Made by a program: the position numbers and the translations under genes. From contig JALEFZ010000016.1 of the NCBI GenBank assembly GCA_022760475.1, positions 1 through 52,711 on the forward strand: a stretch of 52,711 nt of DNA, written 5' to 3'. The stretch's first letter is position 1, and each line of letters begins with the position of its first letter. The notes under the pieces are model-generated. The model did not search any database, was not told the origin of the DNA, and saw only the letters and a list, made by a program, of their open reading frames with translations. Positions 5,264 through 19,211 of the stretch are shown here, piece by piece. This stretch comes from Bacteroidia bacterium (lineage in GTDB: Bacteria; Bacteroidota; Bacteroidia; J057).

Positions 5264-5653
5264 TCAATTGTCACAAGAAATACATTGCTCGCACATACCG
5301 ACCAACAATAACTCCGCAGATTCTATTCTTCGGTCAGGGAGAATGGGAATTTCAATATCAAAATCCAAACATTCCACCTTTCCGCAGACCTTACACTGAA
5401 AATGTGGATGAGAAGTCGAGGGCGTACTAGAAAAACAATCCTTGCACTTGGCATACCACTTTTTACCATCCATTCCCATAAAAGAATGTAGGGTTCCATT
5501 GCCATCCAGCCTATCCAAAATTCGATAAACTGTGGTTTTGTTCATCTCCTCTCTAAGACTTTCTACCAAGTCCACCACGGAGATAGCTTCATTCGTATGT
5601 TCGAACTGCTCAAGGATGATTCTTACAGATTTAGTCTTTCTGACGATTCTCAT
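5264..5653 (-). CDS. Fur-family transcriptional repressor, probably the zinc-responsive Zur type
   Basis: This is a 129-residue Fur-family protein. The N-terminal winged helix (residues 1-60) contains the family pattern NKTTVYRILDRLDGNG. The C-terminal dimerisation/metal part has HPHFQCKVCGK (first Cys pair) and GMCEQCISC (second Cys pair) for the structural zinc site. The neighbourhood argues for zinc rather than iron: it is divergent from an operon of two COG0523 GTPases and a MerC-like gene. Two perfect inverted repeats lie in the 137-bp intergenic region, one of them inside the likely promoter of this gene, so autorepression is expected. It is short compared with iron-type Fur (about 140-150 residues). 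The Zur assignment is an inference; the Fur-family assignment is firm. Confidence 0.85.
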   Translation of the reverse strand: MRIVRKTKSVRIILEQFEHTNEAISVVDLVESLREEMNKTTVYRILDRLDGNGTLHSFMGMDGKKWYAKCKDCFSSTPSTSHPHFQCKVCGKVECLDFDIEIPILPDRRIESAELLLVGMCEQCISCDN

Positions 5654-5657
5654 TGCA

Positions 5658-5688
5658 TGAAATTATTGCAACAATGTTGCATTTGCAA
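5658..5688 (-). promoter_or_regulatory. Probable promoter of the Fur-family gene
   Basis: On the minus strand, TTG (5688-5686) is followed after 20 bp by TAATTTCA (5665-5658), close to the TTG-N17-23-TAnnTTTG consensus. The 15-bp operator at 5667-5681 lies in the spacer, so bound repressor would block polymerase. Confidence 0.5.
5667..5681. promoter_or_regulatory. Fur/Zur-type operator 1 (perfect 7-1-7 palindrome)
   Basis: TGCAACA-A-TGTTGCA is a perfect inverted repeat with one central base, the 7-1-7 architecture typical of Fur-family boxes. It lies 14 bp ahead of the fur-like start codon. Confidence 0.8.
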
Positions 5689-5703
5689 GCAATTCCCTTA
5701 ATT

Positions 5704-5720
5704 TTGCAACACTGTTGCAA
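5704..5720. promoter_or_regulatory. Fur/Zur-type operator 2 (perfect 8-1-8 palindrome)
   Basis: TTGCAACA-C-TGTTGCAA repeats operator 1 with one more paired base on each side. The centres are 38 bp apart. It lies 71-87 bp ahead of the first GTPase ATG. A weak promoter (TTG 5704, then TATTTATT at 5725 after 18 bp) would place this box over the spacer. Confidence 0.8.
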
Positions 5721-5790
5721 TAGGTATTTATTGACTTTTTAGCTAAAGAGCTGCAAATCAACCCTTGAGTACAGCAAAACTTTTTTTCTA

Positions 5791-6813
5791 ATGGAATCAT
5801 CGAAAAAAGCTGTTACCATCCTGACTGGTTTCCTGGGTGCTGGTAAAACGAGTTTTCTCAACCATCTCCTACAGGAAAATCATGGCACTCGTTATGCCAT
5901 CATTGAGAATGAATTCGGCGAGCAGGGCATTGACAGTGAGTTGGTTATTAGACCTGATGATAATATTGTCGAACTCAACAATGGCTGTTTATGCTGTACA
6001 TTGAATGATAATTTGTACGAAATCCTTAGTGAGCTTTTTGACAGGAGGAATGAGTTTGACCAAATTATCATTGAGGCAACCGGAGTTGCAGACCCAACTG
6101 GTTTGGCTGAGCCCTTTGTCTCACACCCACTCATCAAAAAGCATTTTCCCTTAAAAGGAATCATCTGCATGGTAGATGCAGAGCTGATTGAAAGCCAATT
6201 GATAGAGACCGAAGAGGCAAAAAATCAGATTGCTTATAGCGATATATTGTTGATTAATAAAACTGATTTGGTTAATGAAGGGCAGGTTTCAGAGTTGGAA
6301 AAGAAACTTCAAAAGTTGAATCCCCTTGCTGATGTTGTTAGGGGCAATAAAAATGCCTTCCCTAAAATAGACCTGAGTTCAAAGGAATCTCCACTGGATC
6401 GCATCTTTCAGAAAACAGATAAAGACACTTTCGAGGGAGAGGCTCTGCAATTTCCAATAAAAAAGCCCCATTCTCATCATCACCACAAGCATACTGAAGA
6501 GATTGTTTCCCATACGTTTCATTTTGACCAGGCATTCGACTACCAACTATTTGACAGGCATCTTTTTGTGTACCTAATGTTGCAGTCCCAAGGATTATAT
6601 CGCATGAAAGGGCTTGTATGGCTTGAAGGCTCAGAAGACCAATATGTAGTTCAATCCGTAGGCAGCCGCCTGGATATTGAGAAAAAGAGGGCATGGGAAA
6701 TTGGAGAAGAAAGGAAAAGTGTAATGGTCTTTATTGGAAAAAACATTCAAAGACAAGGGCTTGAAAAGCTTTTAAATAAATGCATTAGCAAACGAAGTTC
6801 AACCCAATATTAA
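5791..6813 (+). CDS. COG0523 (CobW/ZigA-like) GTPase, putative metallochaperone 1
   Basis: This is a 340-residue G3E-family P-loop GTPase. The motifs seen are Walker A GFLGAGKT (13-20), an ENEFGEQGID switch segment (39-48), the COG0523 metal-binding GCLCCT (Cys66, Cys68, Cys69), EATGVADP, and NKTD (156-159) for guanine. A histidine-rich stretch (HSHHHHKH, 227-234) precedes the C-terminal CobW_C domain and is a likely zinc-binding tail. Such proteins insert or deliver metal to target enzymes under zinc starvation. It is the first gene of a three-gene operon facing the Fur-family repressor across two operators, so it should be derepressed when zinc is low. The next gene begins 12 bp downstream. 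Confidence 0.85.
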   Translation: MESSKKAVTILTGFLGAGKTSFLNHLLQENHGTRYAIIENEFGEQGIDSELVIRPDDNIVELNNGCLCCTLNDNLYEILSELFDRRNEFDQIIIEATGVADPTGLAEPFVSHPLIKKHFPLKGIICMVDAELIESQLIETEEAKNQIAYSDILLINKTDLVNEGQVSELEKKLQKLNPLADVVRGNKNAFPKIDLSSKESPLDRIFQKTDKDTFEGEALQFPIKKPHSHHHHKHTEEIVSHTFHFDQAFDYQLFDRHLFVYLMLQSQGLYRMKGLVWLEGSEDQYVVQSVGSRLDIEKKRAWEIGEERKSVMVFIGKNIQRQGLEKLLNKCISKRSSTQY

Positions 6814-6825
6814 TCGAGTCTATAT

Positions 6826-7248
6826 ATGCTTGATATACAACTAAAACAAGAAAAGCGTAAGTCTGATGTGCTAGGTGCTACAGCAAGCGGTCTATGCTTG
6901 ATCCATTGCTTGGCGACGCCATTTTTGTTTGTGGCCCAAGCAGGTGTCTCTGGCCATCACGAAGCAAGTCCGGCTTGGTGGGGTGCTATTGATATTATCC
7001 TTTTGGTAGTATCCCTGGCCGCTGTGTATTGGGCTGTAAAAAAGACCTCAAAACAATGGATCAAAATAGCATTAATCCTTAGTTGGGTTTTCCTGGCATT
7101 TTTAATTTTTAATGAAAAATTCGAAGGCATCCATTTAGCTGAAGCATGGATATATGTTCCGACGGCAAGTTTGATAGTATTGCACTTGTACAACAGAAAG
7201 TATTGTTACTGTGATGACGAAGAACACTGTGAAACAGTTGAAGGATAA
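6826..7248 (+). CDS. MerC-like integral membrane protein
   Basis: The 140-residue protein has four predicted membrane spans and the MerC-like start: GATASGLCLIHCLATPFLF, with a Cys-x3-Cys pair at the first helix. The C-terminus has a second cluster, KYCYCDDEEHC, suitable for binding soft metal ions. MerC proteins were described as mercury transporters, but MerC-domain proteins also occur beside Zur regulons; here the position between two COG0523 GTPases points to zinc (import or sensing) rather than mercury. No merA, merP or merT is nearby. The spacing is 12 bp to the gene before and 25 bp to the gene after, so it is co-transcribed. Confidence 0.75.
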   Translation: MLDIQLKQEKRKSDVLGATASGLCLIHCLATPFLFVAQAGVSGHHEASPAWWGAIDIILLVVSLAAVYWAVKKTSKQWIKIALILSWVFLAFLIFNEKFEGIHLAEAWIYVPTASLIVLHLYNRKYCYCDDEEHCETVEG

Positions 7249-7273
7249 TTAGCCTGAAATACCACCTAAAAAC

Positions 7274-8500
7274 ATGGAATTAACAAAAAAATTACCGGTA
7301 ACCGTCTTAAGTGGCTTTTTAGGAGCTGGAAAGACCACCTTACTTAACCACATCCTTCACAACAAGGAAGGATTAAAAGTGGCTGTCATTGTCAACGACA
7401 TGAGTGAGGTCAATGTAGATGCAGAATTGGTCAAAAATGAGAATACCTTATCTCGAACTGAAGAGAAATTGGTAGAAATGAGCAATGGCTGTATTTGTTG
7501 TACCCTGAGGGAAGATTTGATGATAGAGGTAGAGCGTCTGGCCAAAGAAAACCGCTTTGACTATCTTCTTATCGAAAGTACAGGCATCAGTGAGCCGGTA
7601 CCTGTGGCTCAGACCTTCACCTTCCAGGATGAAGAGAATGGGATAGACCTGTCAAGATTCAGCTATATCGATACCATGGTTACTGTGGTAGATGCTTTCA
7701 ATTTCTTCAAGGACTTTGGAAGCCCTGAAACCTTGATGGACAGGGAGCTCACTGATATGGAGGGAGATTATAGAACCATAGTAAACCTCCTTACCGACCA
7801 GGTAGAATTCGCCAATGTGATCATACTCAATAAAACGGACCTGGTTTCTAAAGAGCATTTGGGAACCTTGAAGGCAGCCATTCAGAAATTGAATCCATCT
7901 GCAAAGATTGTTGAATCGACCTTCAGTAAGGTAGATCCTCATAAGGTGCTGAATACGGGATTGTTCAACTTCGAAGAGGCAGAACAAAGTGCAGGATGGA
8001 TAGAAGAGCTCAATAAAGAGGGAGGCCATACACCTGAAACAGAAGAATATGGAATTGGCTCCTTTGTGTACCGTACCAAAAAACCATTCGACCCAGGCAG
8101 GTTTTGGTCTTATATTGAACGCAGGTTTCCTCAAACCATCATTCGAAGCAAGGGATTGTTTTGGTTGGCCTCAAGACCAGAGCAAGCATTGGTTTGGAGC
8201 CAGGCCGGAGGTTCCCTTAGGGCGGACAGTGCTGGCGTATGGTGGAGCAGCATGCCCTTTCAGAGGCGGATTCAGTACCTCTCCTTTATCGAAAATCAGG
8301 ACATTATCGAGTCTGATTGGAGCAAAGAATTTGGAGACAGGAAAAATGAACTTGTCTTTATAGGACAAGCGATGAACGAGGAAGCCATAAGGGCTGAGTT
8401 AGATTCTTGTCTGGCAACAGATGAGGAGCTTGCCTCCCAGAAATGGAAAAAAGGTTATGCAGATAAATGGCCTGTTCAAAGAGCAGTACCCTTTGAATAA
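7274..8500 (+). CDS. COG0523 (ZigA-like) GTPase, putative metallochaperone 2
   Basis: This is a 408-residue G3E-family GTPase. It has Walker [10 protein letters not shown] (14-22), the [14 protein letters not shown] switch, GCICCT (Cys73, Cys75, Cys76), ESTGISEP, and NKTD (186-189). A long C-terminal CobW_C domain follows (about 250-390), rich in Trp and Phe ([20 protein letters not shown]). It lacks the His-rich tract of the first paralogue and is about 70 residues longer, so the two are diverged paralogues rather than a recent duplication. Length and motifs fit the ZigA/YciC type of zinc-starvation GTPase. It ends the operon and is followed by a strong terminator hairpin. Confidence 0.85.
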
Positions 8501-9236: not shown

Positions 9237-9701
9237 TCAGGAAGGGGGGTTGATAATTGGCCCCTGCGTGTCTACCAGAACAAAATTGGTCATGCTGCAG
9301 CTCCTAACCACCTCGGTAGCATTTCCAGGAGTTGGAACCACACAAATTCTGGCTCGGAGACGCTCAAAGTATAGCGATCCATCATCATCGGGCCCCCTTA
9401 GCTCCTCAGGTGAGAACTGATCGGAGAATGAGAGCGCCAAACGATTGTTATTAGGCGTACCTGCAATTTGGGCAGAGCTAATGAAGACCCTCCTTCTTAT
9501 GTCGAGAAAATCATCATTATCAATGCTATCTGAAGGAGTATCTACATCATAAAATGAAATTCTGGCCACAAACCTCAATCCATAATTGGATAGGAGTTTT
9601 TCCATGGGGGAAAACCTGACTACGAAGTTCACCTCTACACGGTAAGGGCCACCAAGAGCGATTTGAGTCGCACTTAATTCTGAAGAAAGAATTCTAGCCA
9701 T
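9237..9701 (-). CDS. Hypothetical protein, second gene of the BTRD1 operon
   Basis: The 154-residue protein has no signal peptide or membrane span. It is beta-rich with two Cys (RICVVPTP, RSCSMTNF) near the C-terminus and acidic loops. I recognise no domain. It begins 33 bp after the stop of the BTRD1 repeat gene and shares its terminator, so it is part of that transcript. It shows no clear similarity to the 283-residue protein in the same cluster, although both lack signals and start directly with a beta-rich region. Confidence 0.6.
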   Translation of the reverse strand: MARILSSELSATQIALGGPYRVEVNFVVRFSPMEKLLSNYGLRFVARISFYDVDTPSDSIDNDDFLDIRRRVFISSAQIAGTPNNNRLALSFSDQFSPEELRGPDDDGSLYFERLRARICVVPTPGNATEVVRSCSMTNFVLVDTQGPIINPPS

Positions 9702-9734: not shown

Positions 9735-10703
9735 TTAATTGAATCTTTCCAGGTCTACCAACCTCAGGTTCTGCTTACTAAGTTCTTTCCATTTCTTATT
9801 GAAGGCATTCCAGTTATTGTATTGGAAGAGTGCATAGCCGCCTGAGCCACTTCTCCAGACCCCAACGTACCAGGTCTTACCTCCTTCTTTGTAAGTTTCC
9901 ACATCGATCAGTCGCTGGCCTTTACCGGCGAGTTCCTTCCATTTGCCCGTAAAACTTGACCAGTTGTTGTAGCGGTACAGGTAGTATCCATCATTTCCAG
10001 CGCGGAATACACCAACATACCACCTTTTCCCACCTTCGCTGTAAGTTGTAATGTCTACCAATCTTTGTCCTTGGCCCCCGAGCTCTTTCCACTTCTTGGT
10101 AAAGGCACCCCAGCTGTTGTAGCGATAAAGGGCGTAGGCATAATTGCCGCCTCTCCAGACCCCAACAAAATACCTTTTGTTTCCAGATCGAAAACTTTCG
10201 ACATCTACCAGGCGCATTCCTTGTCCAGCAAGCTCTTTCCATTTTTTGGTAAAGGCTCCCCAATTGTCAAATTGATACAGGCCGTATTTCCCTTTTCCTG
10301 CTCTCCAGCATCCATTATAGAATACCTTACCATCTTTCTTATAAACCTCTAGATCTACAAGTCGTAGGTTTTTCTTTGACAACTCCTTCCACTTCTTGGT
10401 AAAGTCTGACCAATTGGCTCCTACCCATAAAAAATGTCCATCGCTACCTCCACGCCAAACTCCTAGAAATTTACCACTCAGGTTACTGGAATTTGTCAAA
10501 TCATAACTGTTATTCATTCCATAGAACATGGACGAGTCCGGAAGGACATCGGAAGCTACGGTTTCAAGTTCCTCCTGCTCGTTTTCAACGAAGGACATAA
10601 GCCCTCCCACAATCAGGATGGAAATGCATGCCATCCATACCTTTGCCAGAGGAATGGCCAAGAAATTTCCTGCCCATTTCCCAAAAATGAGATTTGTTTT
10701 CAT
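9735..10703 (-). CDS. BTRD1-type tandem repeat protein (five 50-residue WxxFxxKWKEL repeats)
   Basis: The likely start is the ATG giving MKTNLIFGKW (10703), as the upstream extension to 10763 has no support. An N-terminal membrane or signal segment (about residues 20-38, VWMACISILIVGGLMSF) is followed by five repeats with an exact 50-residue period. Each repeat has NWxxFxxKWKELxxxxxRLVDxE and then YxxxGVWRxGxxxYxLYxYN. This is the pattern of bacterial tandem repeat domain 1 (PF17660), found alone or ahead of hydrolase domains, for example in polyglycine hydrolases. No hydrolase domain is present here. The DNA repeats are only partly conserved (150-bp period). It is the first gene of a two-gene operon whose promoter shares an element with the kinase operon. 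Ligand and role are unknown. Confidence 0.75.
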   Translation of the reverse strand: MKTNLIFGKWAGNFLAIPLAKVWMACISILIVGGLMSFVENEQEELETVASDVLPDSSMFYGMNNSYDLTNSSNLSGKFLGVWRGGSDGHFLWVGANWSDFTKKWKELSKKNLRLVDLEVYKKDGKVFYNGCWRAGKGKYGLYQFDNWGAFTKKWKELAGQGMRLVDVESFRSGNKRYFVGVWRGGNYAYALYRYNSWGAFTKKWKELGGQGQRLVDITTYSEGGKRWYVGVFRAGNDGYYLYRYNNWSSFTGKWKELAGKGQRLIDVETYKEGGKTWYVGVWRSGSGGYALFQYNNWNAFNKKWKELSKQNLRLVDLERFN

Positions 10704-10760
10704 TTGTATTTTTAAAATTGAACTGTTTTGATTGAGGCTTTGTGCCTTAATCGATACAAT

Positions 10761-10804
10761 CAAAGGTATTCATTCAATGCATATCTGTAAATCCCACTTT
10801 TGTA
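10761..10804 (-). promoter_or_regulatory. Promoter A: TACAAAAGTGGGAT element plus -7 box of the BTRD1 operon
   Basis: Read on the minus strand, TACAAAAGTGGGAT (10804-10791) is followed after 22 bp by TACCTTTG (10768-10761), a perfect TAnnTTTG -7 box. No TTG lies at the -33 position. The start codon of the BTRD1 gene is 58 bp further. The same 14-bp element, with one mismatch and 23-bp spacing, precedes the 283-residue gene. Confidence 0.6.
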
Positions 10805-10817
10805 GGAAAAATGAACC

Positions 10818-13817
10818 TCAAAGTCCTTTCAATGGACTTCTCAAGATTACCTGGGTCCCATTCGATGAACTGCTGTATTGAACAGAGCCACCAAGCCCTT
10901 GCATCTCGCTTTCGATGTTTCGCCTACCGTTTCCACGGCCAGGCTTGTCCACAATGTTTTTGGGATCAAAGCCCTTCCCATTATCCCGAATACCCATGAT
11001 TAGAAAGCCTTCCTTTACCTCCACTTCTATCTCAACCATTGTAGCTTCAGAATGGACAAAAATATTATTTATAACCTCCTGGAAGGCTAAAACCAAGGAC
11101 CATCGATAGTCTCCATTTAAGTCAACGTTTGGAATGCTTGAATTATACTTGAATTTTACTTGAAGATTCTTGAGTGTTTCTTCTGCTGTACTACGAAGAA
11201 AATCAAGAGAATTTGGAAGAGAGGAACTTTCCTTTTCATGTTTCATAATCCAAATAGCTGCCCGAAATGACTTGTCGAGAGCGGAAACCAAAGCTTTGGT
11301 AAGACCAATTTTGTCCTTTAGTTTTTCTGGCTCACTAACCTCATTTAGTTCGTCGAGCTCTCCATTTAATTTACTCATATGGACAGCCAATTTAGCATGC
11401 ACCTTCCCGCGAATTCTCTTGCGTTCTTTAAAAATTATTTGTTGCCTCCTTCTTTCCAGAAAGCTGGCAGTAAACCAGGTCAAAGCTGATAAAACCGCTG
11501 CACACATTAGGATAAACCACCACCTCAGGTAAATGGGTAACTTGATTGTGATATACAATTTTTTGGATTTGCTGGCGACGCCATTGGTATTCATGGCCAC
11601 CAATTCTAAAACGTACTTTCTGGATGGAAGTTGGTTGAACTGTAGATCTTCTCCATTATTAACTAAGATCCAGGGAGCTTCGCTTTCTCCTTTACCTTCA
11701 GGATAAAGCCTGTACCTTATTTTTACAGCATCAGGTGCATAGAAATCTATTCCAACAAGCCTGAACTCCAATGAATTTTGGTTATGAGACAGTTCAATTT
11801 TATCCCTTTCGCCAATATTCCCAAATTCCTTGAAAATGCTGTTGTTGATCTTTAAACTTTCTAAGTAGGGTTTTGGGGCATGTGGATAAGATTTAAGGTC
11901 TTCAAGACTAATGATTTCCAGCCTATCCTGCTGGGAAAGCCAAATTTTGTTTTCTGAATCGATTAAATAAGCTGGGGTAAATGAGTTAAGCCCCTCAGCT
12001 TTGCCGAACCTCCTGAGGCTTGAATCGGTTGGGTTATAGCGAAATAATTCGTCCAGGGTAAGAATCCATAATTTTCCAGATTTATCTTTTTGAAGCCCCA
12101 GGATTCTCTTATTCCCTAATTCCCACTCTTGAGAAAGAAACTTTTGTAGGGTTTCTGTCCCCTTTAAGGTTAGCATGCCTTCACTGGTACCTATCCAGAC
12201 CTTATCTCCTGAATCGTTGCCAAGGGCCGCAGTAACTTCAGAGTAAAGCTCTAGGGAATTGATTTTATAATCATTCCTATATTTTTGGCAGACCCAAAGT
12301 TCAGTATTGGAATAAGGGATAAGTAAGTCTTCGTTGGAAAATGGAGAAAATATTTTCAAAAAATTAAGTCCCTCATAATCAACAAAACTATTTGAATGAA
12401 CAGGTGAGAGTTTCCCTTTTTTGAAGTTTAAGCTCTTGATGCCAGTGTTGGTGACAAGAAGTTTGCTATCATTATTCTCATGTTTTAAAAAATAGAACTG
12501 AAAGCTTTTTGAAGAATACACCTTAACCCAACGGAATCCCTTTTCATCAAAGCGGTAGATATGTTCTCTATCGAGGCACCACAAAATTCCGTTTTTATCC
12601 ATGCTCAAATGTTGAACTGTTTGGAGGCCGTCTGAAAAGGAAGCAGGGGGAAAATGTTCCGCTAAATTTCCTTTCAAATCCAGTAAATAGACCCCATCCA
12701 GGCTGGTACCTAGCCAAATTCGTTTCATAGAATCTTCAAGGATAAAATTTACTTGGGACTTTTTGTTTCTAAAAATGCTCTCTTCCAGGCTTACTCTTGG
12801 GATACTAGGTTTGGAATAGGCTATGGCCGAGGAAGGATGGGAAGTCCAGATTCTTGCTTCTTCATCTACAGACATTCCGATGATTTGTTGTCCGATGCTG
12901 GCAGGCTCAGCTTCCTTATGTTCCCATTTCTGAATCCGTTTCCCACTTTTGGTGTTAAAAAGCCACAGCCCTTCTTGAAATGTTGCGATATACAAGAGAG
13001 AATCTATTTTCTTCCCCTTGAAACAAAAGGTATTTGGATATAAGCAACTGAGGGATTCATCCCCACTTCGGGATTTGTACTCATATAAGCCCTTGGTTGT
13101 CAGAAGCCAATAAATACCATCATCGACCAAAAAAGACTCTGTGATATAGAACTGTTCTTCCAATAAAAACTCTTCTTTGCGAACCTCACCTCCCCTGCCC
13201 CACTTGATTATTTCAAACCCATGGCTGTCTAACCAAGGGCTAGCAATAAGCTGACTAATTTCACCATTTGAAGTCGTATCAACCACAAACCGCCTTCCTT
13301 TGCTGGAAATTCCGGTTTGAATAGCTTTATCAGGTTTTTCTATATCAACTTTAAAGATTTGACCATTTTTCCCTGCCCTTAACCATATTATCCCTTGACG
13401 CTTTTGAAGGTGAAACACAATGTATCCTTCCTTAATCCTGGCTCCCTTTTCATCTACTAAGGTAAATGGAATCAGCTGATCGGACATTCTTTCATAGCAG
13501 TAATAAGCCTGATCGGTGCTAAACCAAAGGTTGGATTGGCCATCCTCCAAAAACTCGCTGGTAACAATCTTGTCACGGAGGCTATCTTTTAGGTAGCGGG
13601 TTTCGATCCCATTATAACGAAGAGGGCCTTGCATGGAGCCAATCCAACAATAGCCACGGCTATCATGCGAGATAAACATGCTACTATGCCTTGAAGAAAG
13701 GCCCGAAACTCTTGCATCAAAGCTGAGATTCGGGCCTAAAAATTGGGCATAGAGCTCCCCCTGGCCTGTAAAAAGTAGGCAAGCCAGCAGTAAAAGCCTA
13801 AAGAAGCAACTGTGCAT
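10818..13817 (-). CDS. Two-component propeller sensor histidine kinase (HisKA_3 type)
   Basis: The 999-residue protein begins with a signal peptide (residues 1-24). About 650 periplasmic residues follow, with repeated WIG/LWF/IWLG blades of the two-component regulator propeller (Reg_prop) type, then a Y_Y_Y domain (about 690-755). One membrane span (about 762-785) leads to a cytoplasmic kinase of the NarX/LiaS kind. That has a HisKA_3 helix with His807 in ERKRIRGKVHAKL and a C-terminal HATPase_c with N-box FQEVINNIF, DNGKGFDP and GRGNGRRNIESEM. The residue after the histidine is Ala where the family normally has Asp or Glu. It follows the 283-residue gene by 31 bp. A NarL-type regulator that could be its partner is encoded divergently just upstream. 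Confidence 0.85.
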   Translation of the reverse strand: MHSCFFRLLLLACLLFTGQGELYAQFLGPNLSFDARVSGLSSRHSSMFISHDSRGYCWIGSMQGPLRYNGIETRYLKDSLRDKIVTSEFLEDGQSNLWFSTDQAYYCYERMSDQLIPFTLVDEKGARIKEGYIVFHLQKRQGIIWLRAGKNGQIFKVDIEKPDKAIQTGISSKGRRFVVDTTSNGEISQLIASPWLDSHGFEIIKWGRGGEVRKEEFLLEEQFYITESFLVDDGIYWLLTTKGLYEYKSRSGDESLSCLYPNTFCFKGKKIDSLLYIATFQEGLWLFNTKSGKRIQKWEHKEAEPASIGQQIIGMSVDEEARIWTSHPSSAIAYSKPSIPRVSLEESIFRNKKSQVNFILEDSMKRIWLGTSLDGVYLLDLKGNLAEHFPPASFSDGLQTVQHLSMDKNGILWCLDREHIYRFDEKGFRWVKVYSSKSFQFYFLKHENNDSKLLVTNTGIKSLNFKKGKLSPVHSNSFVDYEGLNFLKIFSPFSNEDLLIPYSNTELWVCQKYRNDYKINSLELYSEVTAALGNDSGDKVWIGTSEGMLTLKGTETLQKFLSQEWELGNKRILGLQKDKSGKLWILTLDELFRYNPTDSSLRRFGKAEGLNSFTPAYLIDSENKIWLSQQDRLEIISLEDLKSYPHAPKPYLESLKINNSIFKEFGNIGERDKIELSHNQNSLEFRLVGIDFYAPDAVKIRYRLYPEGKGESEAPWILVNNGEDLQFNQLPSRKYVLELVAMNTNGVASKSKKLYITIKLPIYLRWWFILMCAAVLSALTWFTASFLERRRQQIIFKERKRIRGKVHAKLAVHMSKLNGELDELNEVSEPEKLKDKIGLTKALVSALDKSFRAAIWIMKHEKESSSLPNSLDFLRSTAEETLKNLQVKFKYNSSIPNVDLNGDYRWSLVLAFQEVINNIFVHSEATMVEIEVEVKEGFLIMGIRDNGKGFDPKNIVDKPGRGNGRRNIESEMQGLGGSVQYSSSSNGTQVILRSPLKGL

Positions 13818-13848
13818 TCGCCTTAATTGAGAAAATCTGGAAAGTTAC

Positions 13849-14700
13849 CTATAACTTTAATGTCCTTACCAAAAAGTCTTGCCAATCTGCCGTAGAATAT
13901 CCATGTCCAATGGGAATCCAGGTTGGTGGGCAAGGAAGTCCGAGAACTATACCAGGAACCTCCTCAAAAAGAGAAGATTGTGGAGCACTAACTCTCTTTC
14001 GTACATTTTTATCCAGTATCCTGAAACTTGCGTTTACAAACCTTGGATCATCCTCCTCATTACAATCAGTATCTTTTGCCTGCCTAGGAGACATAGCATC
14101 CAGATAGCGCATGTCCCCCTCAGCCTTAAATGTGAATACATTATTAATCCTGGGGGAATTCCTTTGAAAAGCTGCAAGACCCAGGTTGAGTTGAGCACCG
14201 GAGAATACAATCCTTTCTGAAAACTGGGTTAAACTTTTTAGTCCTGCCTTTGGGAAAAAGCAAAACGACAAATCATTGTCTGAATCTTTTTCGAACTGAA
14301 AGTTCCCATTTGCTCGCCAATAATCAGCATCGAATTCAGAGTTTTGCTCTGAAACCACTTGATATCCCGCTAGGGAAGGATCGCTTGAATTGCGACCAAT
14401 CAAGATATTTTGGGCAGCTTGAAATAAAAAACCACCAGAAACATTCCTCAATGTCCCATCATCATTTTGTCCATAAAGTCGATCAATATAAAAGTCAGGA
14501 ACTACAGAGGCATCTGTGGTAAAAAATTCTCCAGCGACCTCAACAATATGCTGAAAAGCAAAAATAATTCCCAAAAGCTCTAAACAGTCGTCCGCAGGTT
14601 CTTCATCAAGATAGCGATCCAGTGCTCTTGCATCCACTTCAAAAGCAATATAAGGATCGGGCTGCTTGAACACAACCTGATTGAAAATGAGGTTTTCCAT
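13849..14700 (-). CDS. Hypothetical protein, first gene of the sensor-kinase operon
   Basis: This 283-residue acidic protein lacks a signal peptide and membrane spans. It begins with FNQVVFKQPDPYIAFEVDARALDRYL, an acidic helix-rich stretch, and ends with PTWIPIGHGYSTADWQDFLVRTLKL. I recognise no domain or catalytic motif. It is transcribed from a promoter with a 14-bp element shared with the BTRD1 operon and lies 31 bp before the sensor kinase, so it probably works in the same pathway, perhaps as an effector or accessory factor; that is inference. Confidence 0.6.
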   Translation of the reverse strand: MENLIFNQVVFKQPDPYIAFEVDARALDRYLDEEPADDCLELLGIIFAFQHIVEVAGEFFTTDASVVPDFYIDRLYGQNDDGTLRNVSGGFLFQAAQNILIGRNSSDPSLAGYQVVSEQNSEFDADYWRANGNFQFEKDSDNDLSFCFFPKAGLKSLTQFSERIVFSGAQLNLGLAAFQRNSPRINNVFTFKAEGDMRYLDAMSPRQAKDTDCNEEDDPRFVNASFRILDKNVRKRVSAPQSSLFEEVPGIVLGLPCPPTWIPIGHGYSTADWQDFLVRTLKL

Positions 14701-14795
14701 AGTTAGGTTTATTCTATTTTAAAATTCAATTATTATAAAAACTCACATAATCCCATTTACCAAAAAATATTATGCGAATCTCAAAATATTCTTAA

Positions 14796-14840
14796 CAAAG
14801 ATACTATATTATAGTAAGAACGAACCATCCTACTTTTGTA
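14796..14840 (-). promoter_or_regulatory. Promoter B: TACAAAAGTAGGAT element plus -7 box of the kinase operon
   Basis: Read on the minus strand, TACAAAAGTAGGAT (14840-14827) is followed after 23 bp by TATCTTTG (14803-14796), a perfect -7 box. There is no TTG -33 element. It matches promoter A in 13 of 14 positions and nearly the same spacing. On the plus strand the site contains TACTTTTG, itself a -7-like sequence, which is an alternative reading. Confidence 0.6.
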
Positions 14841-15062
14841 TGATTTTTTGGCCCAAATTAATTTAGGATTTGCTTCCATTCTTTTTTTTCACGTATAATA
14901 ATTAACGCATTTGTGATCCTTTCCCTGGTAGTGTATGGGGAATATTCTTATTGATCAATGAATCAAGAGCACATCATTCACCTAAATTATCTCCTTCAAT
15001 TGATAAACAAACTCAAAGTTATTTTTTGAAAAAAGATCCAATTTTCAAAACCAGTTATAGAA
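14841..15062 (+). other. AT-rich leader and regulatory region of the NarL-type regulator
   Basis: Together with 14701-14840 this forms a 362-bp gene-free stretch between divergent genes. The only structure I can support is promoter B on the minus strand. On the plus strand a loose match, TTG about 14999 followed by TATTTTTTG, may be the promoter of the regulator, but it deviates from consensus. Confidence 0.3.
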
Positions 15063-15713
15063 ATGAAACCTTTAGAAATAGCCATAATTGAAGACGAGCC
15101 CAACTACCAGGCTCACCTAAAGCAAATCATCTCTGATGCGCCTGATTTGGTCTGTAGAAGGTCTTATAGCAATGCAAAATCAGCCATCAAGGGCTTGAAA
15201 AATAACCCAATGGATATTGTGATTGTGGACATAAATCTGCCTCCTGGAAAACCGGGTACCTATTGCATTCAGAAACTAAGAAAGGCCTATAAATCGAATC
15301 CAAGGATCAAGACAAAATTCATCGTCCTCACATTCAAGGATGAAGACGAGGAAGTTTTTAATGCCTTAAAATCAGGAGCCATGGGATATATGTTGAAGAG
15401 CAGTTCACCCTCAGAAATATTGGAAGCTATCAGATCCATCAATCGGGGAGAAGCACCAATGAGCCCTGCCATAAGCAGAAAGGTCGTTTCCTTTTTTCAC
15501 AGCCCGATTGACATTTCTTTATCAGATCGAGAACAAGAGATCATTGGACTTTTGGCAGATGCAGTCCCTTTAAAAAATATTGCTGACAACTTATTTATTA
15601 CTATCGAAACGGTAAAATCACACTGTAGCAATATCTACAAGAAATTACACGCAGTGAATAAGGTAGATGCCATTAATAAGTATTTTGGACGAATCAGGTT
15701 TCCCTTTCGGTGA
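15063..15713 (+). CDS. NarL/FixJ-family response regulator (REC + LuxR-type HTH)
   Basis: The 216-residue regulator has an N-terminal receiver (acidic pocket EDE at 10-12, phospho-acceptor Asp56 in VIVDINLP, LTFKDEDEE, Lys in GYMLKSSSP). It is joined to a LuxR-type HTH at about 150-212 (LSDREQEIIGLLADAVPLKNIA...TVKSHCSNIYKKL). It is divergent from the operon with a HisKA_3 sensor kinase, the usual partner of this type, 362 bp away. It is the best candidate to bind the two TACAAAAGTRGGAT elements ahead of the neighbouring operons. The tRNA-Arg gene lies convergently downstream. Confidence 0.85.
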   Translation: MKPLEIAIIEDEPNYQAHLKQIISDAPDLVCRRSYSNAKSAIKGLKNNPMDIVIVDINLPPGKPGTYCIQKLRKAYKSNPRIKTKFIVLTFKDEDEEVFNALKSGAMGYMLKSSSPSEILEAIRSINRGEAPMSPAISRKVVSFFHSPIDISLSDREQEIIGLLADAVPLKNIADNLFITIETVKSHCSNIYKKLHAVNKVDAINKYFGRIRFPFR

Positions 15714-16088: not shown

Positions 16089-19000
16089 TTAGTTCTTCAC
16101 GAACTTTCTTACTTGCACACCTTTAGCTCCGCTGAGCTTGAGGGTGTAGATTCCATCTTGCCAACTTGAAACATTCCATTTCAATACCTCTCCTGACCTG
16201 ACAGTCTGTTCCTTCGCCTCCACTGATTGTCCAAGATTGTTGAATACTTCAATGCGAATTTCGCCAAATTCTTCGCCGATTGCAATATTTAGCTGGGTTG
16301 AAGAAGGATTTGGATAAATCTTCAATTGGTCAACATCAGACAAGCCTTCATTAGAAGTGATCACACGGTTACCAATTGCATACCAAGTGCCAAACCTCGC
16401 AACAGGAATGAGAATGGATGCGTTTCCATTGGCGTTGATCTTATCTGCCGCTAGCGCAATCTGTGCCAATACATCAGAATTCTGATTGTCCTTGGCATTG
16501 AAAATCATCGTCCCATCATCGGTAGAGAAGTTTGGATAGCCCAAAACATCGTTATTTGGCCAAACAGTACCTACACCACCACTTTCAATATTCGCAGCAA
16601 GTACGTCGATTTTGTTCGTCGCAGGTTCAAAATAATCGAAGGCAATGACGTAAGGAGAGTTACTCGAGAACTCGGCATTGCCTACATTCGCACCCTCCGG
16701 CAAGTTGGTAAACAAGGGGGTAATAAGCCCATCAGAAGGGTTATTTGAAGCAGTGTTCCATACACGGATGAAGTTGATGTCCCAATACTCCAGGTCGCCG
16801 CCAACCGAAGGATTTGGAATCCGGTTGAAAGCATCATACATCAGGTACTCACCTGTGAAATCCCAGGAAATCGCATCAGCATACAACACGCTCGACACGG
16901 TACTTCCTCCTTGCGCAGTAGTGGGAGTGTACAGCTTAAATTGAAATCCACGAACCTGAGAACCGGAGAAGTCAAATATGTAGATACTGGTGTCAATAGA
17001 AGTAGAGATCGCAGCCAACCTTAATCCATCCTTGGAAATGGCCACATTGTCCCACTCCGCTGTATTGCTGATCCTGCTTTGCCTACTCCCACTGAAGTTT
17101 GGATCAAGCGCCAATCTATAGATATGCTTGTCTTCTCCTACATAGTATCCAAACTGCCCATCATCTCGTACGGACATCCTTGTTTGGGGGGTAGTCTGGG
17201 AATAAGCCAAGAAATTGGCTCCAGCTGTATTGGAGTTGTACCATGTATTGTTGTCATTCACATTTACGTCATTGGAGACGATATATTGAGTTCCAGGATT
17301 AATGGGTACATCATCTTCGTAGGTGTTTCCACCATTGCTACCAGTACCCCCATTTGGATCTACGATACCCACGGCATCAAATGCGTTTGCAACCGCTTGA
17401 GCTACCGCATTTCCAGGCCCTCCATTCAGGTCTTCTGCTGCACGGATGATGGCAAAGCGAGCATCGATGAATTGTGAAGATCGAGTCAAATAAGTGGTCA
17501 ATGCGCGATAGTAAACTTGCTCTGCAGTAGCTTTAGAGGTATTGGTAGCTACCAGGTAGTAGGCGCGGTTTACAATACCACTATTGATATGTACCCCGCC
17601 ATTATCCTGAGAACCAGTGTACAGTTCATTCATATTTGCTGGCTGCCAACCAGGGCTATTGAGGCCTGTACCTCCTTGATTGGGATTCTGCATATCCCTT
17701 AATGCTCCTGATGGGAAAAAGTTGGTTTTAACTACCTCTTCACCCAATCTCCAGTCATCTCGGTCAATCATGGCACCAAAAATGTCTGCAAAAGATTCAT
17801 TCAAAGCCCCAGATTGCCCCTGATACTCAAGATTAGCTGTTTCCTGGATCACACCGTGAGACATTTCATGGCCACCTACGTCCTTGGAGCCAGCCAAGGG
17901 GAAAAATGCATTTCCACCATTTCCATAAAACATAGCCTTTCCATTCCAAAAGGCATTATCTAGTCCTCCTCCATTTTCATCTGCAACATTCACAAAGGAA
18001 ACTACATCTCCACCTTCGCCATTGATTGAGTTCCGGCTAAAGGTCGTTCTAAAATATTCATAGGATTCCCGTGCATTGAAATGTGCAGAAACCTCTACGG
18101 CATCCCAGCTATTGGGATTAGATGATTCGGCATAGAAGAATGAAGGTGAATTGATGCTTGTATTGTTCATATCACCAGTAAGGATGAAACCACTTCCATC
18201 AGCCGGCAGGTTATTGCCAGAGGCAGGTCCTGTATACATCGGAACATTGGTGTCAATCAGGTAATAAGTTCCCGAGGAAACCCACAAATTCAGGTTTCGG
18301 TTGATTCCATTCAAATCCTGAGAAGAACCAGTAGCTGGTCCTACGGTACATGTATGGTCATAATGGTTCAGAACAGTTCCTGTTTCTGCATCAATGAAGT
18401 ATTCCCACCTTCCCAATACATTGGGTCTGACCGTTACATGATAGGCCAAACGATGACGAACTACCCTTCCAGGTAAGCGGTAAATCACCAATTCCGTTTC
18501 AGGCTTTGTGTAGTCCAAGACTTTTTTCCAATATTCATTCAACTGCATGACCTCAGTATGGGCTGCAACTGCATCCATTGCTTTCTTTGCTGCTTCTTTG
18601 TCATCCAGAACAGGAACGATGTTAGTCACCTTTGGTGTTGGCTGATACCTCCCGCCAAACATTAATTTTTTCCCAGGATAAAAGTGGAAGATCACCTCAC
18701 TCCCGTACACGGGGATCCCCATGTGAGCTTGTTTCATCCGAACATGAACAATCCCACGGTCAGCTTTTTCACTGTCATCTATGTAGGAAATTTCAAAATC
18801 TGTAGTAGGATTATCGATTCCGAAAATATCTTTGTGGTCAGTCAAAAACTGATAAGCCAAAACTCCTTCAATCGAAGCCCCCATTCCCTTACGGAAAGAA
18901 AGTTCAGGTACATCAGCTTCGATGTAAATGGGTAAGCCGTCCTCCTGGCTGTAAACCAGCTTCTGTATATCTGTTGGAACAGTTTGCTTTTTATTTCCAA

Positions 19001-19211
19001 AGGGAATAGACGAAAAAAGCGAGGGAGCTCCCTGGTTAATTTTCCCGTTGTGGCGGATCAGGCTGGCTTTCCCTGGAGGAAGAACGGAGAATTTGGCCTC
19101 GCCGCGTTGCTTTTTCTCTTCAAGGGAGCTTTGGGCATGTAGGCTTGCTGTAGCAAGCGATAATAGCGCAAATGCCATCCCCCAAAGCAATAGGTAAATA
19201 TTTTTCTTCAT
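16089..19211 (-). CDS. M4 (thermolysin-like) metallopeptidase with T9SS sorting domain
   Basis: The 1040-residue secreted protease has a signal peptide (1-26), an FTP/PepSY-type propeptide (about 60-270), and then the M4 catalytic domain. The zinc motif is HEMSH (His448, Glu449, His452) with the third ligand Glu472 in NESFADIFG. The NGGVHINSG motif carries the transition-state His. After the peptidase (to about 620) comes a beta-rich region of about 330 residues with TolB/WD-like blades, for example SRISNTAEWDNVAISKDGLRL in two parts, a probable propeller. The last 75 residues are a T9SS type A sorting domain (LKIYPNPSSTQLNI ... GIYTLKLSGAKGVQVRKFVKN). The propeptide is expected to be removed by self-cleavage. 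It is monocistronic with its own terminator. Confidence 0.9.
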   Translation of the reverse strand: MKKNIYLLLWGMAFALLSLATASLHAQSSLEEKKQRGEAKFSVLPPGKASLIRHNGKINQGAPSLFSSIPFGNKKQTVPTDIQKLVYSQEDGLPIYIEADVPELSFRKGMGASIEGVLAYQFLTDHKDIFGIDNPTTDFEISYIDDSEKADRGIVHVRMKQAHMGIPVYGSEVIFHFYPGKKLMFGGRYQPTPKVTNIVPVLDDKEAAKKAMDAVAAHTEVMQLNEYWKKVLDYTKPETELVIYRLPGRVVRHRLAYHVTVRPNVLGRWEYFIDAETGTVLNHYDHTCTVGPATGSSQDLNGINRNLNLWVSSGTYYLIDTNVPMYTGPASGNNLPADGSGFILTGDMNNTSINSPSFFYAESSNPNSWDAVEVSAHFNARESYEYFRTTFSRNSINGEGGDVVSFVNVADENGGGLDNAFWNGKAMFYGNGGNAFFPLAGSKDVGGHEMSHGVIQETANLEYQGQSGALNESFADIFGAMIDRDDWRLGEEVVKTNFFPSGALRDMQNPNQGGTGLNSPGWQPANMNELYTGSQDNGGVHINSGIVNRAYYLVATNTSKATAEQVYYRALTTYLTRSSQFIDARFAIIRAAEDLNGGPGNAVAQAVANAFDAVGIVDPNGGTGSNGGNTYEDDVPINPGTQYIVSNDVNVNDNNTWYNSNTAGANFLAYSQTTPQTRMSVRDDGQFGYYVGEDKHIYRLALDPNFSGSRQSRISNTAEWDNVAISKDGLRLAAISTSIDTSIYIFDFSGSQVRGFQFKLYTPTTAQGGSTVSSVLYADAISWDFTGEYLMYDAFNRIPNPSVGGDLEYWDINFIRVWNTASNNPSDGLITPLFTNLPEGANVGNAEFSSNSPYVIAFDYFEPATNKIDVLAANIESGGVGTVWPNNDVLGYPNFSTDDGTMIFNAKDNQNSDVLAQIALAADKINANGNASILIPVARFGTWYAIGNRVITSNEGLSDVDQLKIYPNPSSTQLNIAIGEEFGEIRIEVFNNLGQSVEAKEQTVRSGEVLKWNVSSWQDGIYTLKLSGAKGVQVRKFVKN

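Follow-up and report, generated by a model that had tools for sequence, protein, structure and literature searches.

Two near-identical inverted repeats as candidate operators of a NarL-type regulator in a Bacteroidia bacterium

Among the closest described counterparts of the system considered here are the NarL-dependent promoters of Escherichia coli. The sites recognised there by NarL dimers are 16-bp inverted repeats, and 7-2-7 sites occupy positions -40 to -49 (napF) and -38 to -47 (yeaR) (PMC4549865). Two 16-bp inverted repeats were found in contig JALEFZ010000016.1 of assembly GCA_022760475.1 from a Bacteroidia bacterium (lineage J057); the stretch examined, positions 1 to 52,711 of this contig, is referred to as the window. 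Both repeats stand ahead of predicted promoters, one of an operon headed by a gene for a BTRD1 repeat protein and the other of an operon containing a sensor histidine kinase gene, and a gene for a NarL-type response regulator lies nearby. On the evidence of sequence, a dimer of this adjacent regulator probably binds both repeats and switches on the two operons as an activator in a class II position (probability about 0.7). Class II activator sites are centred near -41 to -46, beside or over the -33/-35 region.

NarL (1a04, E 2.7e-25) is the best solved relative of the window regulator, and the window repeats are likewise 16 bp long, with centres predicted near -42 and -43. The window promoters, unlike those of E. 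coli NarL, are of the Bacteroidota TAnnTTTG type. The half-site, read towards the centre, is TCCTAC versus TACCCCT in the engineered NarL site given in PMC4549865; NarL heptamers of the TACCCCT type spaced by 2, as presented there, are absent from the window operators, whose half-sites are unlike TACCCCTAAAGGGGTA. According to PMC7366714, the -7 box of Bacteroidota is TAnnTTTG, no -33 element could be found in Flavobacterium johnsoniae, and the box is centred at -7 in Bacteroides thetaiotaomicron (section 8). In the same phylum, the hybrid two-component systems of Bacteroides are sensor-regulators whose target promoters lie in the gene cluster that encodes them (PMC11253607). In those systems kinase and regulator form one protein, whereas the window kinase and regulator are separate proteins and the regulator is NarL-type.

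Two operators in a common register

The elements of the two predicted promoters, as read from the sequence, are the following.

10792-10807, minus strand: operator 1, TCCTAC-AAAA-GTGGGA
10761-10768, minus strand: predicted -7 box 1, TACCTTTG
14828-14843, minus strand: operator 2, TCATAC-AAAA-GTAGGA
14796-14803, minus strand: predicted -7 box 2, TATCTTTG

A first-pass annotation of the window had described a shared 14-bp element at both operons, at nearly equal distance from a perfect TAnnTTTG box, and both observations were borne out. Element 1 (10791-10804) and element 2 (14827-14840), both on the minus strand, match TACAAAAGTRGGAT with no mismatch and, compared directly, have 13 of 14 bases in common; the spacing to the box is 22 bp for the former and 23 bp for the latter. 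Absent from that annotation is the symmetry of the sites. The addition of two upstream bases turns each element into an imperfect 16-bp inverted repeat, in which five of the six arm pairs are symmetric in either copy, and the dyad coincides with bases common to both operators. The half-sites, towards the centre, are TCCTAC/TCATAC and TCCCAC/TCCTAC. The operator centres are located 31 bp (operator 1) and 32 bp (operator 2) upstream of the -7 box, which places them at about -42 and -43 if the box is centred at -7, or at about -45.5 and -46.5 with the transcript starts of the first-pass annotation. The -7 TAnnTTTG of a sigma-ABfr-type promoter is perfect at both predicted promoters, and its -33 TTTG/TTG is absent ahead of both boxes. 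A perfect 15-bp palindrome, TACTATA-A-TATAGTA (minus strand, 14802-14816), was also observed between operator 2 and its box, overlapping the box by 2 bases; nothing resembling it accompanies operator 1.

When 14 bases were compared in register at the intergenic exact TAnnTTTG boxes of the window (18 boxes, 151 pairs), a single pair, that of operators 1 and 2, agreed at 13 of 14 positions and the next best at 11, whereas none of 22,950 control pairs from first-order Markov sequences reached 13 or more. The flanks of the two elements show low similarity, which speaks against a copied stretch. In the whole genome (6.86 Mb, 96 contigs) the exact TACAAAAGTRGGAT occurs twice, both times in the window. 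The search for the composite of TACAAAAGTRGGAT and TAnnTTTG, proposed as a check in the first-pass annotation, came out in favour of the pair, since the two window sites were the only matches (control 0); a looser composite gave three, the window pair and C19:7928, against one in the control. Genome-wide enrichment of the degenerate element was considered and rejected, as 171 matches with up to two mismatches compare with 169 in the reversed control. What carries the claim is hence the near-exact pair, together with its register. Ten one-mismatch copies of TACAAAAGTRGGAT exist in the genome, none of them with TAnnTTTG 18-27 bp downstream. One, L005 on contig C32, lies inside a 505-aa open frame and has such a box, TACCTTTG, 35 bp downstream. 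Another, the intergenic copy L003 on contig C14, reads TCCTACATTTGTAGCA and contains TACATTTG on the opposite strand. Neither L003 nor L005 is claimed as a target.

A different palindrome in the same register at sister loci

The comparison was extended to 20 fetched loci around regulators 34-42% identical to the window regulator, found through the family (sister loci). In 7 of these 20 Reg_prop-kinase/NarL-regulator loci a different palindrome is present, CCCNWWNGGG (ACCCAWATGGGT-like), as a rule with its centre 31 bp ahead of a TAnnTTTG-like box. The script searched for CCCNWWNGGG and two close GGG variants outside open frames, followed by a TAnnTTTG-like box (up to one mismatch) 22-48 bp downstream, and one double reading was counted once. 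Thirteen palindrome-box combinations were obtained, eight of them at offset 36, one at 35 and four at 28, 32, 34 and 43. Offset 36 corresponds to a centre 31 bp upstream of the box, like that of operator 1, and offset 35 to one of 30 bp. The nine combinations in register fall in 7 of the 20 loci (L094-L097, L103, L104 and L107), whose sites include one-mismatch boxes and the two GGG variants, and the other 13 loci have none in register. L098, in which a palindrome stands in register by eye, was excluded from the count because an open frame overlaps it. The regulators of the seven loci share 36-41% identity with that of the window. These loci resemble the window in regulator subfamily and in having a palindrome with its centre 30-31 bp ahead of the box. 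They differ from it in the palindrome itself, in the recognition helix and in the target genes, whose products include DUF6252 proteins and others that end in a type IX sorting tail.

The seven palindrome loci are exactly those of the 20 whose regulator has the helix NT[VI]KAHIK, while the helices of the remaining 13 are of the HTVR, DTVR, ETVR or KTLK types. Palindrome and recognition helix of the adjacent regulator thus go together in 20/20 loci, which ties the palindrome in register to that regulator. At the window locus both differ from the sister type, the helix of the regulator being ETVKSHCS. At the last position shown, Lys is found in 19 of the 20 sisters, Tyr in L099 and Ser in the window regulator. 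Nor is the Ser unique: among 120 wider homologues, the window regulator included, the same position varies (K 39, H 29, R 25, S 6, smaller numbers of others). The two closest homologues, P0003 (45% identity) and P0004 (44%), carry the helix ETVKSHCHNIYKKL, in which ETVKSHC is as in the window and the last position is His. In NarL, the residue numbers concerned are 188, 189 and 192, and the consensus is TACYYMT. Read outward from the centre, the half-sites are AAGGGTAAT in some sisters (L139, L142), AAGTGGGAT and AAGTAGGAT in the window, and AAGGGGTA in the engineered NarL site (PMC4549865).

A first sister pattern proved too narrow, with three matches in 13 genomes. The family-wide pattern CCCNWWNGGGT-N12-40-TAnnTTTG gave 29 matches in 13 genomes, with a peaked spacing: seven at gap 25 (two of which are near-identical copies in one genome) and two at gap 24, with no more than two in any other bin. 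All five matches whose locus encodes a kinase or regulator of the subfamily sit among these nine. The strict palindrome TACCCNWWNGGGTA was found 21 times in 18 of 395 genomes of the class (reversed control 10), with four matches at gaps 23-24, nine at 18-19 and eight elsewhere. One of the four, L181 in genome G104 (gap 24), comes from another family of the same class, and a protein closely related to the regulator (E 2.4e-44) is encoded beside it, which indicates that the operator-box architecture extends outside the family. The gap-18-19 group was set aside and is not taken for sister-type sites. In five of its nine members (L174, L176, L177, L179 and L183) a TACCC-N4-GGGTA palindrome 18-19 bp before TAnnTTTG directly precedes a small helix-turn-helix gene, which we take to resemble HipB-type antitoxins, and these sites likely belong to another regulator as autorepressor operators.

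The operator of the window itself was sought among relatives. No relative with the window locus was found among 100 genomes, the single match being the own genome, and a contig scan gave four distant kinase loci with 19-22% identity. Inspection by eye of the region upstream of L035, the locus of the nearest kinase, revealed no such operator, and a dyad search before the exact boxes in L099, L035, L065, L066 and L067 returned nothing resembling either operator. Relaxed to two mismatches, the window palindrome has five matches in the 20 sister loci, all of them inside open frames. The 16-bp composite occurs three times in the 395 genomes of the class (control 2), two of these being the window sites.

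Genes around the operators and the weighing of explanations

The genes that would be governed by the two operators, together with those of the putative signalling proteins, are arranged as follows.

9237-9701, minus strand: 154-aa protein without a Pfam match, likely the second gene of the BTRD1 operon as suggested by the short gap
9735-10706, minus strand: BTRD1 repeat protein, 323 aa from the chosen ATG, first gene behind promoter 1 (Pfam PF17660, E 1.2e-27)
10818-13817, minus strand: 999-aa Reg_prop sensor histidine kinase (Pfam and alignment)
13849-14700, minus strand: 283-aa orphan protein, first gene behind promoter 2 (no Pfam match)
15063-15713, plus strand: NarL-type response regulator, 216 aa, divergent from the kinase operon, candidate binder of both operators (Pfam PF00072, PF00196)

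Operator 2 precedes the 283-aa orphan gene and then the kinase gene, operator 1 is situated directly behind the kinase gene and ahead of the BTRD1 gene, and the regulator gene lies beyond operator 2. The regulator consists of a receiver domain (PF00072, E 4.5e-17) and a GerE/LuxR-type helix-turn-helix (PF00196, E 1.5e-13), and its Asp56 (IVIVD) aligns with the conserved phospho-acceptor Asp of 12 sisters and of NarL. For the 283-aa protein, the protein search returned only itself, and the gene was found only in the own genome among 100 genomes. L035 encodes the nearest kinase (27% identity, truncated by the end of its contig), which likewise follows a gene of about 237 aa (L035 2473-3186); the product of that gene has no detectable similarity to the 283-aa protein. 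Elsewhere in the window, a Fur-family gene and two CobW-family GTPase genes follow one another at 5264-8500, which suggests a metal-supply cluster. Beyond the regulator gene, at 16089-19211, lies the gene of an M4 peptidase of the thermolysin type that has a sorting tail for type IX secretion.

The first-pass annotation had proposed an activator-dependent promoter pair with the adjacent NarL-type regulator as the candidate binder, and this is the best-supported reading, the sister palindromes in register following the helix of the adjacent regulator. The sequence itself shows the two repeats, their near-identity, their symmetry and their shared register, and the comparison shows that a group of sister regulators has a palindrome of its own in the same register. 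According to the proposed mechanism, the Reg_prop kinase would sense a signal and phosphorylate the regulator, a dimer of which would then occupy both operators. Bound to the repeat, the dimer would assist RNA polymerase at promoters that have no good -33 element. The BTRD1 operon would in this way be switched on, as would the orphan-kinase operon, the latter amounting to positive feedback onto the kinase.

A number of results weigh against this reading. The missing TTG -33 element, which the first-pass annotation had put forward in its support, is indeed missing at both promoters, but it is weak evidence because TTG 16-21 bp upstream is also missing at 12 of the 18 boxes that entered the pair comparison. 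Symmetry alone is weak as well, since a 5-of-6 dyad was found at four other window boxes at one of the eight offsets tried. Two of the ten one-mismatch element copies (L003 and L005) also match TCCTAC-N4-GTAGGA with one mismatch, out of register. Beyond the window pair, the class scan of the 16-bp composite adds one stray match only, and in the 20 sister loci the window palindrome is not found at up to one mismatch. The family-wide sister pattern shows no overall excess, its 29 matches comparing with 38 in the reversed control, and common descent of the seven NT[VI]KAHIK loci may contribute to the agreement between helix and palindrome. Finally, Pfam detects HATPase_c in the kinase and no HisKA_3 domain at the threshold of E 0.001; the aligned His is kept, and the residue next to it is Ala where 5/5 aligned sister kinases have Asp. 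Phosphorylation by this kinase may be weak, or may be supplied from elsewhere.

Of the other explanations, the one that survives best, at rather long odds, accepts the repeats as a real shared operator and assigns them to a different protein, which could be an activator encoded at an unlinked place or one that represses the two operons. Candidates are numerous, given that many NarL-type regulators are encoded in the own genome (24 matches). Nevertheless, both exact copies adjoin this regulator gene and occur nowhere else in the genome, the 20/20 agreement described above connects the sister palindrome with the adjacent regulator, and a site upstream of the -7 box would fit an activator better than a repressor.

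It is considerably less probable that element 2 owes its shared bases to a promoter of the divergent regulator gene. Element 2 does hold, on the plus strand, a perfect TAnnTTTG, TACTTTTG (14831-14838), and the similar TCCTACATTTGTAGCA of L003 directly precedes a 499-aa open frame, with TACATTTG on the strand of that frame. Yet element 1 has CACTTTTG at the corresponding place; this is not a perfect box, and a promoter there would be directed towards the 3' end of the kinase gene, so that the pair is not accounted for in this way. Nor would the idea explain why the spacing to the minus-strand boxes is equal, and the start codon of the regulator gene is some 225 bp away from element 2. The least probable explanation, by a narrow step, is a chance resemblance without function, to which the mere two copies, spotted after the fact, the lack of enrichment of the degenerate element and the two further out-of-register palindromes would be congenial, and against which stand the empty Markov control, the dissimilar flanks and a register identical to that of the sister operators.

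Shared register and separate targets

The NarL-type, class II-like activation proposed here is of a known kind; what deserves attention is a register common to paralogous systems with different half-sites. No description of such a shared register was encountered among openly licensed papers, as judged by their titles and the beginnings of their abstracts. The binding of both window repeats by the adjacent regulator might be part of a wider rule, which we put forward tentatively and at somewhat less than even odds: paralogous Reg_prop-kinase/NarL-regulator pairs of the family would exert their effect through a palindrome whose centre is 31 (30-32) bp upstream of TAnnTTTG, pairs residing in the same cell would be kept separate by half-site letters that change with the recognition helix, and the window locus would represent a pair whose code has changed and whose targets are captured orphan genes.

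How the targets of paralogous two-component systems are separated within one cell is an open question, least explored in Bacteroidota. If the proposed rule is true, a fixed distance between operator and box, with a half-site varying alongside the helix, would make the targets of such regulators predictable from sequence, and the paralogous pairs would supply natural specificity variants for bench tests.

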